Assembly: GCA_022772475.1 (NCBI GenBank)
Contig: JALEZQ010000069.1
Coordinates: forward strand, 1 to 41,919
Reading direction: 5' to 3'
DNA from: Bacteroidales bacterium
GTDB lineage: Bacteria > Bacteroidota > Bacteroidia > Bacteroidales > Bacteroidaceae
Length of the DNA stretch: 41,919 nt
Below the pieces are notes generated by a model. That model made no database searches and was not told the DNA's origin. It was given only the letters and a program-made list of their open reading frames with translations. Position 1 is the stretch's first letter. Each line of letters begins with the position of its first letter. Positions 9,599 to 29,780 of this stretch are shown here, one piece after another. Made by a program: the position numbers and the translations under genes.

Positions 9599-10912
9599 AT
9601 GAAGAACAAAATTCTATCGCTCTGTTCATTTGCGACAATCGCAGCAGGGCTCGTATTCACAGCTCTGACCATGTCCTGTTCCAATGATGACAGCGACATC
9701 GACCCTATACCTGCTCCTGTCCCCAAGCAACAATGGAGCAAGACGTTGAAAGGTAACGGCGAAGAGTTGGGAGCCTATCCCGACCTCTATGTCAACTACT
9801 GGGAATATACCTACAACCTCAAAGACCACAAGGATAAGGTGATTATCTTCAAGGGTGAGTTTCCACATTGCCGCTATTTCAGCTTCTCTCTGTACGACGA
9901 TAACACCGGCGACGTCATAGGCGGCATCGATGACAGGAACATCACCCCCGATGCAGGCTGTGAGAATCCTTTCCACAAGACGGTGACGGGAGAGCATACA
10001 TTTACCGTCTGCGTGGTTCCGTCAACGATAGACGAGCAGACCATAAGCCGATTGGGATTGCGCAACGTATGCCGGGTAGATGCTGATGTCGAGCGCGTGG
10101 CTGTTGTCGTGAGGGAGTATCTCGGTACGAACGCGGCTGGCACAGCGGCTGATGAGTACGGAGGAGTAGATCTGCCGGCCATCACTGCCATCAATGTCTA
10201 TACCGGAGCACAAACGGCCATCCCCGAGCATGTGGCAACGAATGTGAACACGATTACATCGAAGGTGTTCTCGCAGAAGTCTGACGAGAATAACACGATG
10301 CCCTTCTTCCTGGCGCCTGTGAGTCGTTACTATCCCAACAACTCTACAGCCTATCTGTATGCGCGTACTCATCTTCGTACCGACTCCGTACTGGTGTTCC
10401 GATTCATTCCCGCCCCTTATCCCACCAAGCCGGAGGAATATGCCACATCCGTCACGCGCTATTGGTCCATTTGTCTTGGGTCATGCGCTGACACACGCTC
10501 CTACTATTCGATATGCGACAAGGACGCCAATTTTGTCTCGGGCGAAAAAGCCACTTTCGTGGTCTGCCTGAAGAACAATCCACGACTTTCCGAGATTCGC
10601 GCAAAGGTAGAAGAAATGAATGGCAGGGGAGAGCATGTAAACCTCTTTGTATGGGACAGCGAAAAACTCAATGTTGATGGCAAACCCATCGGCGAGGTCT
10701 TCGCCGTCATGTACCGCAACATCCTGCCGGACCGCACATGGCCTTATTCTATCGCCAACATGCTGCCTACGGCTTATAAGGATGCAGATGGAGAGCCCAT
10801 CGATCACGTCACACAGCCCGACAAACAACTTGCCCACCTTGCCCTCGGCAACTATGGACCATTGGGGGTGAAGTATTCCACAACAGATTTTCTTGAAGGC
10901 AAGACCGAATAA
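9599..10912 (+). CDS. Second lipoprotein, DUF1254/DUF1214-like beta fold suspected, function unknown
   Basis: This 437-aa protein has a signal peptide and a lipobox-like end at LTMSCS, then SNDDSDID. A core around GEFPHCRYFSFSLYDD, DRNITPDAGCENPF and VVREYLGTN..GGVDLPAI resembles a group of uncharacterised bacterial proteins sharing the DUF1214-type pattern of YFSF-x-Y followed by PD-x-G-x-NPF. This is pattern memory, not a search result. Cysteines are unusually frequent for a surface lipoprotein, for example CLGSCADTRSYYSICDKD. It follows the first lipoprotein by 54 bp and ends at a strong hairpin terminator, closing the accessory block. Confidence 0.65.
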   Translation: MKNKILSLCSFATIAAGLVFTALTMSCSNDDSDIDPIPAPVPKQQWSKTLKGNGEELGAYPDLYVNYWEYTYNLKDHKDKVIIFKGEFPHCRYFSFSLYDDNTGDVIGGIDDRNITPDAGCENPFHKTVTGEHTFTVCVVPSTIDEQTISRLGLRNVCRVDADVERVAVVVREYLGTNAAGTAADEYGGVDLPAITAINVYTGAQTAIPEHVATNVNTITSKVFSQKSDENNTMPFFLAPVSRYYPNNSTAYLYARTHLRTDSVLVFRFIPAPYPTKPEEYATSVTRYWSICLGSCADTRSYYSICDKDANFVSGEKATFVVCLKNNPRLSEIRAKVEEMNGRGEHVNLFVWDSEKLNVDGKPIGEVFAVMYRNILPDRTWPYSIANMLPTAYKDADGEPIDHVTQPDKQLAHLALGNYGPLGVKYSTTDFLEGKTE

Positions 10913-10935
10913 TCTACGCATCCATTACTGAACGA

Positions 10936-10980
10936 GTAGGAGGTAAACGCTGACCGTAGGCGTTTATCTCCTACTTTCTT
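10936..10980 (+). terminator. Intrinsic terminator of the lipoprotein operon
   Basis: Fifteen-bp arms GTAGGAGGTAAACGC (10936-10950) and GCGTTTATCTCCTAC (10960-10974), with one G-U pair, enclose a 9-nt loop and lead into TTTCTT. It ends 9 bp before repeat array 1. Confidence 0.88.
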
Positions 10981-10989
10981 ATTGAGTAG

Positions 10990-11414
10990 TGAAATTGCCA
11001 CAGCCCTTGGCAATCGCATTGCCAGCCGCGGGCAATCGCATTGCCGGCCGCGGGCAATCGCATTGCCAGCCGCGGGCAATCGCATTGCCAGCCGCGGGCA
11101 ATCGAAGTGCCAGCCGCGGGCAATCGAAGTGCCAGCCGCGGGTACATCGAGTGCCAGCCGCGGGTACATCGAGTGCCAGCCGCGGGCACATCGAGTGCCA
11201 GCCGCGGGTACATCGAGTGCCAGCCGCGGGGAATCGTGTTCCCAGCCGCGGGGAATCGTGTTCCCAGCCCTTGGGAATCGTGTTCCCAGCCCTTGGGAAT
11301 CGTGTTCCCAGCCCTTGGAAATCGTGTTCCCAGCCTTTGGGAATCGTGTTCCCAGCCGCTGGGAATCGTGTTCCCAGCCGCTGGGAATTCAATTCCCAAC
11401 CGCCGTGGGATTTT
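10990..11414 (+). repeat. Repeat array 1: 18 tandem 22-bp units with covarying inverted repeats
   Basis: Complete units run from 11009 to 11404, preceded by a half unit (TGAAATTGCC then a linker ending CAGCCCTT) and closed by GTGGGATTTT. Each unit is a 15-bp dyad plus a 7-bp linker (AGCCGCG or AGCCCTT). Classes in order: A, GGCAATCGCATTGCC (4 units, 11009-11096); B, GGCAATCGAAGTGCC (2, 11097-11140); C, GGYACATCGAGTGCC (4, 11141-11228); D, GGGAATCGTGTTCCC (8 including the last, 11229-11404). Arms vary together, so pairing is mostly kept. The right arm of one unit can also pair with the left arm of the next across the linker. There are no unique spacers, so it is not CRISPR. It lies between convergent genes. 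Confidence 0.95.
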
Positions 11415-11514
11415 TATCATTGCTGTCCGGCAGACGGTATCAATGTGTTGTGCCGTAAGTTGTCTCCATAGGAAAATCTGCACTATGGCGTTGAACCTGC
11501 TGCGGCAAGCACAA

Positions 11515-29312: not shown

Positions 29313-29716
29313 TGAAATTGCCCCAGCCCTTGGCAATCCCGTTGCCAGCCGCGGGCAATCGCATTGCCAGCCGCGGGCAATCGCATTGCCAGCCGCGGGC
29401 AATCGAAGTGCCAGCCGCAGGCAATCGAAGTGCCAGCCGCGGGCACATCGAGTGCCAGCCGCGGGCACATCGAGTGCCAGCCGCGGGTACATCGAGTGCC
29501 AGCCGCGGGTACATCGAGTGCCAGCCGCGGGTACATCGAGTGCCAGCCGCGGGGAATCGTGTTCCCAGCCCTTGGGAATCATGTTCCCAGCCCTTGGGAA
29601 TCGTGTTCCCAGCCCTTGGGAATTGAGTTCCCAGCCCTTGGGAATCGTGTTCCCAGCCCTTGGGAATCGTGTTCCCAGCCCTTGGTGAATCGTGTTCCCA
29701 AGCGCTGTGGTATTTT
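29313..29716 (+). repeat. Repeat array 2: 16 complete 22-bp units plus a degenerate one, same classes and order as array 1
   Basis: Units run from 29332 to 29683, preceded by TGAAATTGCC and a linker ending CAGCCCTT, and closed by a degenerate unit and GTGGTATTTT, matching the ends of array 1. Classes in order: A (3 units, 29332-29397), B (2, 29398-29441), C (5, 29442-29551), D (6, 29552-29683). Three single-unit variants (first A unit, second and fourth D units) change only the loop between the paired arms. It lies between the 3' end of the ZIP transporter gene and the lon promoter. It is oriented like array 1, although its neighbours read leftward. Confidence 0.95.
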
Positions 29717-29780
29717 GAAGGGTAAAAAAAGGGGACAGTCGAAAGGCTGGGTACGCGGTTGTTGCCACGACACGCGCCCT

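Follow-up and report, generated by a model that had tools for sequence, protein, structure and literature searches.

Dispersed 22-bp tandem arrays in Bacteroidaceae intergenic regions as probable half-site arrays for a putative DNA-binding protein

Arrays in the window and in its genome

The window, meaning the whole 41,919-nt stretch of DNA analysed here, carries two tandem arrays of 22-bp units, neither of which is assigned a strand. Array 1 (11009..11397) is preceded by a plus-strand ORF of 437 aa (9599..10912) with no Pfam family at E 0.001 and by a terminator-like hairpin found as an inverted repeat between that ORF and the array (10934..10976, plus strand), and it is followed by a convergent minus-strand gene of the beta-N-acetylglucosaminidase family (PF07555; 11589..15236); all three are context outside the array. 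TRF called a 22-bp array at 11012-11388, and the unit parse extended it to 11009-11397, giving 18 units that each consist of a 15-bp dyad, GG.A.......T.CC, plus a 7-bp linker. This bears out the unit count, step and unit layout of a preliminary description, whose wider extent, 10990-11414, also takes in both terminal half-sites. These half-sites belong to a left cap (10991..11008, plus strand), made up of GAAATTGCC and a 9-nt linker, and a right cap (11398..11415, minus strand), where a 9-nt linker, AACCGCCGT, is followed by GGGATTTTT in an imperfect inverted copy of the left cap; array and inverted caps together span ~10991-11415.

Along array 1 the arms run from GGCAA/TTGCC (n=4) through GGCAA/GTGCC hybrids (n=2) and GGYAC/GTGCC (n=4) to GGGAA/TTCCC (n=8, one of them GGAAA). 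A switch between arm classes with complementarity retained had been proposed, and it holds in part: three classes are present and complementarity exceeds that of within-array shuffles, but mismatched hybrids are also found among the arms. The DNA helix has 10.5 bp per turn, and because 22 bp is not exactly two turns, each unit adds a drift of ~34 degrees, so the 18 sites would wind gradually around the DNA and not share one face, as had been suggested.

The terminator-like palindrome beside array 1 (window 10933-10978) starts GTAGGAGG, has similar counterparts in the genomes G628 (contigs C69 and C179) and G243 (C120), and is possibly a REP-like repeat with a GTAG tag. Immediately beyond the right cap, the sequence at window 11417-11476 recurs in G243 contigs C134, C105 and C41 and in G628 contig C47, and a similar motif, GACAGCAAT, borders a few further arrays in the window genome.

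Array 2 (29314..29717; TRF, unit parse, Pfam) lies between lon and a ZIP-family gene, and its 17 parsed units, the last imperfect, follow the same block order as array 1. Across 20 contigs of the window genome we parsed 23 array stretches with 266 units, and of the 243 unit-to-unit steps 238 were 22 bp, three were 24 bp and two spanned gaps. The unit pattern had 211 matches in this genome and none when reversed, which argues that arrays of this type are not a product of chance. The array count is a lower bound of at least 22 or 23, as two stretches (L040a and L040b) look like a single array split by ~345 bp; a lone unit on contig C16 (L080) was left out, and several arrays lie within ~250 bp of contig ends. 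The apparent interruption at L040 (1879-2223), by ~345 bp of other sequence, means that arrays may be insertion targets. A second repeat of ~150 bp, GTGTCTAGTGAAATCAGGAAAAGACA-like, abuts or truncates arrays in the left flanks of L041 and L081 and the right flanks of L045 and L051.

Many array ends in the window genome carry an inward-facing cap like GAAATT(G/C)CCAC(A/G)GCCCTT, with a 9-nt linker in place of the 7-nt one, and many others have no cap. Such imperfect inward caps, which amount to the terminal inverted repeats characteristic of MITEs, occur at both ends of arrays 1 and 2 and in some other arrays. By crude longest-ORF models the arrays are intergenic in every gene arrangement, with six of the 23 in convergent, five in tandem, six in divergent and six in unknown context. 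Genes adjoining arrays encode, among other products, Lon and ClpX (window genome) and a Clp_N-type Clp ATPase and trigger factor (genome G599), and no clear functional theme emerged among array neighbours in the 45 gene models scanned, 43 of them from a list of 71.

Symmetry within the window species

The arrays can be re-read as a single half-site, GGNAN, whose orientation alternates every 11 bp, so that the dyad of the 15-mer and that of the 7-bp linker are equally good. Linker ends are mutually complementary in 116/238 cases in the window genome, so that a longer dyad is often centred on the linker. An alternative pairing of each right arm with the next left arm had been described for array 1; it is present and equals pairing within the unit, with position 3 complementary across the linker in 153 and within the unit in 156 of 238 cases, and position 5 in 209 and 215.

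Complementarity in the window genome exceeds that of within-array shuffles at pair 3-13 (176/266 vs 136.5 +/- 5.9) and at pair 5-11 (238/266 vs 161.2 +/- 6.6). The units occur, however, in blocks of few symmetric types. In the 100 pairs of neighbouring units that belong to different classes, the left unit stays paired in 45, the right unit in 42 and the arms flanking the linker in 40; breaks in symmetry are thus as frequent within units as between them. Tied in this way to blocks, and breaking in this way, the covariation is not proof of base pairing. Half-site positions 3 (mainly C/G/T) and 5 (mainly A/C) vary in this species, yet symmetrically within blocks, and this counts against reading the array as protein half-sites, as strict sequence recognition would not predict it. 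With units set in AGCC-linker orientation, and bearing in mind that units are not independent, pair 3-13 is T.G in 53 and C.A in 20; T.G occurs in 18/23 array stretches and C.A in 6/23, an excess that could hint at single-strand folding.

Pair 7-9, in the middle of the 15-mer, can pair in 29/266 units, below chance expectations of 47.2 +/- 4.4 (within-array) and 85.5 (global). Many spacers of the window genome contain TCG or CGA.

Symmetry of this kind might arise with no selection at all, through quasi-palindrome correction by template switching, and at position 5 half-site identity in the window species does decay smoothly with distance in either orientation: agreement is 0.89 with the inverted neighbour inside the unit, 0.88 with that across the linker and 0.87 with the next half-site of the same orientation. 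The corresponding values at position 3 are 0.66, 0.64 and 0.81, so that the inverted neighbour agrees less there (0.65) than the next same-orientation half-site. Template switching would also symmetrise the centre of the unit, where pairing is below chance, and other lineages lack such symmetry; we regard this mutational origin as highly improbable.

A second reading takes the arrays as a ladder of RNA or single-stranded DNA hairpins, REP/BIME-like, that acts in mRNA stability or termination, with the palindromes kept by pairing. It draws on the complementarity above shuffles and the T.G excess just described. When both strands were folded, as the preliminary description had proposed, folding was far better than for shuffles (z -8.45 and -7.81), but the predicted folds are largely long nested foldbacks and not ladders. 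Divergent gaps, moreover, carry arrays about as often as other gene contexts do, which speaks against a role of this kind.

Conserved anchors and free spacers in related arrays

Among 58 genus and 201 family genomes, only the window genome and G243 carry the exact window-type pattern in abundance: 4/58 genomes match in the genus scan, two with a single match, and 4/201 in the family scan, three with a single match. The pattern is also present in G628 (MAG SUG549; L106), a third close genome. A two-unit pattern, which sets the 22-bp spacing of two units by construction, gave 44 stretches over named genomes, 19 of them CAMGHE contigs of one MAG, apparently G243. Among the other 25, 21 have chains of at least three units and 19 show the architecture, a count that omits the off-register L113 and a Streptomyces stretch resembling chance. 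The 22-bp architecture with different half-sites is found in Prevotella multiformis, P. denticola and Bacteroides clarus, and we take the genus labelled g3 as probably Bacteroides because its locus in G635 matches a B. clarus locus (L100). Half-sites shift by lineage, from GGTAC/GGTAT in g3 and GGGAC/GGAAC in G008 to GGGAA in P. multiformis and GGCAA/GGCAC/GGGAA in the window genome.

A covariance model built partly from the two-unit-pattern stretches of named genomes matched 36/301 genomes family-wide and 19/295 order-wide, the window genome included in both counts. Of 27 family-wide loci inspected, eight have a 22-bp chain of at least three units, two a 23-bp chain, one a 21-bp chain and, by the chain criterion we applied, 16 none. 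Inspection of 23 order-wide loci in other genomes gave two 21-bp chains (G381), one 23-bp chain (G270) and 20 loci without a chain by that criterion; these arrays outside the family, at L128 and L147 (G381) and L129 (G270), are built of GGAAT..ATTCC and GGGAA..TTCCC palindromes. A sequence model from g3 and G008 arrays matched at least 89 times in G599, at least 64 in G637 and at least 32 in G008, with none in G150 or G553 among the matches listed. Gene context in 20 arrays of other genomes, some mutually orthologous, was convergent in seven, tandem in six, divergent in five and unknown in two.

Some g3 arrays share a head, roughly AATAAGATAC.TGTACC (L264, L268, L341, L347 and L348 in G599; L327, L337 and L338 in G637; L258 in G577), found by one loose pattern at 10/94 ends, at least one of them probably by chance. 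A role as a landmark of the replication origin or terminus was rejected as placement is inconsistent (P=0.03 in G599, a nominal ter bias; 0.78 in G637; 0.61 in G008), judged from at least 19, at least 15 and at least 11 array loci in the three genomes and the GC skew of twenty 15-kb stretches each; the loci were those among the matches listed, with one G008 locus taken from the family-wide model and two weak G637 matches without a 22-bp chain dropped. Class A units resemble the sigma-54 promoter motif, a reading dropped because other unit classes and genera lose the resemblance.

The preliminary description had suggested that the arms stay complementary because either base pairing or a symmetric protein site is selected, and the related arrays favour the second. 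Watson-Crick pairing shows no excess over within-array shuffles in g3 (18 arrays, some orthologous, 98 units; pair 5-11, 38/98 vs 40.7 +/- 3.3), in G008 (pair 3-13, 6/23 vs 8.3 +/- 1.9) or in P. multiformis/denticola (15 arrays, 60 units; pair 3-13, 41/60 vs 41.3 +/- 1.1; pair 5-11, 29/60 vs 30.9). Allowing G-U gave 61/98 vs 64.2 +/- 2.1 in g3, 17/23 vs 18.1 +/- 0.9 in G008 and 43/60 vs 43.2 +/- 1.1 in P. multiformis/denticola, and allowing C-A for the opposite strand left the null result unchanged in all three lineages. The arms of arrays with this 22-bp architecture thus vary independently in related genomes, an outcome that the preliminary description had itself named as refuting, and its base-pairing half fails on it.

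What is conserved is the bases. We compared 12 G599 loci for which one to three relatives have an orthologous array (82 ungapped units from 16/17 locus pairs, flank identity 79-90% where measured). The anchors GG.A/T.CC agree in 460/492 positions (93%) and the spacer in 225/410 (55%), figures to be read knowing that most loci were chosen for having an array in both genomes, that arrays were found with anchor-based patterns and that the aligner may favour anchors. Position 3/13 agrees in 146/164 (89%), position 5/11 in 98/164 (60%) and the linker in about 60%. Pair 5-11 is the same in 31 units and altered in 51/82, on one side in 36 and on both in 15. One-sided changes lose a Watson-Crick pair in 15 cases, gain one in 14 and do neither in seven; two-sided changes stay paired in one, gain in two, lose in one and do neither in 11, which leaves a single pair-keeping double change among the 51 changed units. 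In g3 orthologs, then, bases are conserved and pairing is not, which fits the protein-site half of the earlier proposal better.

Alignments that mix lineages do covary. One of many lineages (A1) covaries on both dyads, with 55 double-changed cells vs 22.2 +/- 3.2 shuffled, but since its lineages differ as wholes, a shift in protein specificity predicts the same. In a second (A2; 25 g3 rows and three G008 rows), the unit dyad scores 0.112 vs 0.065 +/- 0.011 shuffled, with a control slid by two columns at 0.113, and the linker dyad 0.119 vs 0.099 +/- 0.015, which is no clear excess, 44/500 shuffles reaching it. Once the three G008 rows are removed, the unit-dyad covariation of the 25 g3 rows is gone (0.049 vs 0.060 +/- 0.010 shuffled). 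Covariation that shows between lineages but, the window species excepted, inside none of them is what would be expected of a symmetric binder with drifting specificity. In g3, near-invariance is confined to a 4-bp stem and its 7-nt loop, which tells against hairpins. As there is no covariation within the three other lineages tested and a single compensated change among g3 orthologs, the RNA hairpin ladder was rejected as the main reading despite the T.G excess in the window species, and we give hairpins little credence overall.

Array loci are shared by the window species and its closest relatives. The number of units, which varies in whole 22-bp steps, differs in at least 7/9 orthologous pairs shown, with block order mostly kept; L098, opposite L051, lacks two of the L051 blocks. 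The right end of array 1 lies at a contig start in G243, and its left flank in that genome was not among the matches listed. One g3 locus carries an array in G577, G646, G599 and G635, but G637 has a 40-bp gap instead, from which it follows that an individual array copy is dispensable, a point against the half-site reading; several more distant genomes have a short gap or unrelated sequence at this locus, and the array-free G637 orthologue may reflect either deletion or absence. In a Lon search of the genus, made with array-free sites in mind, 51/58 genomes match; G243 comes first at 99%, and the next full-length Lon shares 65% identity.

This turnover is also what a non-autonomous mobile minisatellite would produce, MITE-like in that a transposase moves its capped ends while its interior slips, the array being useless to the host. 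The inward caps at many ends, the 23 dispersed stretches, the differing unit numbers and the array-free locus in G637 all suit it, and BrickBuilt is a precedent (PMC4596501). Yet no insertion sequence with array ends was found in the 87% complete assembly, where the pattern of the ends occurs in 10 places, namely nine arrays and one lone unit, and no target-site duplication was recognised by eye at the array ends of the window genome. A parasite would not be expected to hold its anchors at 93% while its spacers drop to 55%. Typical MITEs are AT-rich, unlike arrays 1 and 2, which are GC-rich (63.5% and 63.1% vs 57.7% for the window). We consider this reading unlikely, though it ranks next after protein half-sites, and it is compatible with binding by a protein, since a spreading array may also serve as a binding site.

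The half-site reading and known systems

The element is real, dispersed and selected, and hairpin pairing is not the selected target in the three other lineages tested. Our preferred explanation, to which we assign a probability of roughly 0.6, is that the arrays form a Bacteroidaceae intergenic family of protein half-site arrays with a putative binder. GGNAN half-sites in double-stranded DNA would be set alternately head to head and tail to tail at 11-bp intervals, a placement by which any two neighbouring half-sites form a dyad. A putative symmetric (dimeric) DNA-binding protein would most likely load cooperatively and build a regular nucleoprotein array in the intergenic gap, and the shifts of unit number in 22-bp steps probably come about through slippage or unequal recombination, whence the blocks of identical units. 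We infer that such a protein selects the anchors and binds them as an array, in a job that may be structural or regulatory.

In 300 kb of evenly spaced G599 stretches, GGTA-N7-TACC occurs 12 times, five of them in one array at 22-bp spacing, and the other seven are no more than ten control patterns can give (2-13, median 2.5); the sites thus seem to exist mainly as arrays. Isolated operators were accordingly set aside for G599, the one informative genome, as the G637 stretches miss all array loci found and GGTA is not the G008 half-site. More tentatively, we propose as a possibility a chromosomal DNA-binding system of Bacteroidaceae, not described before, whose specificity would shift by lineage (GGTA, GGRA, GGNA) and which might form filaments or clusters on ~20 intergenic arrays per genome as organising, insulating or regulatory anchor points. 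If the half-site reading is true, one of the major families of the gut carries a recurrent DNA landmark that is under selection and bound by a putative protein. The arrays also illustrate how block amplification can mimic compensatory covariation.

That the element belongs to no known repeat family, as first proposed, stands within the scope searched: Rfam gave 0 matches at the gathering score for the window and six loci, BLAST against phage and plasmid collections found no match to the array, nothing of this kind appeared in the literature listings, the parts seen of PMC3733652, PMC5771137 and PMC3049150 describe no matching repeat, and terms for such a repeat are absent from PMC2267715. Similar in layout is BrickBuilt of P. 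gingivalis, described as 19 intergenic arrays of a 23-nt unit with variable unit number, inverted ends and assembly trouble, with a leader and a tail that can reach about 300 nt and IS5-type ends, reported just from P. gingivalis and P. gulae; 22-nt repeats of P. gingivalis are mentioned there too (PMC4596501). Both are dispersed intergenic tandem arrays with inverted ends in a Bacteroidales genome, but the BrickBuilt consensus, AGAYCATARTATCCTCTCRTRTG, is 23 nt against the 22-bp unit here and, compared by eye, bears no resemblance to it (PMC4596501). In the BOX elements of pneumococcus, too, terminal modules enclose tandem internal ones that vary in number, but these elements are boxA-boxB-boxC composites, and an alternating 11-bp half-site goes unmentioned in the excerpt seen (PMC3049150).

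REP/BIME elements share intergenic palindromes that are sometimes clustered (PMC3733652), whereas array units here are contiguous at a fixed 22 bp and divergent gaps are freely used. Neither GTAG nor CGTC was seen beside the palindromes among the window-genome units and linkers listed. REP/BIME elements have such a tag, and a RAYT gene flanked by the repeat; the window genome has two Y1_Tnp genes, and a RAYT/REP origin was rejected, as no array lies beside either of these transposase genes within the 4.5-kb stretches around them. CRISPR arrays differ as well, since there are no unique spacers here and the window-genome units are contiguous with repeated linkers.

Iterons, ParR/parC and similar multimeric operators consist of short half-sites at one- or two-turn spacing that load a protein array at one replicon locus. 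The half-site spacing is alike, with binding putative here; unlike those systems, the present arrays have no adjacent dedicated gene that we recognised, and they lie dispersed at about 20 places in the genome.
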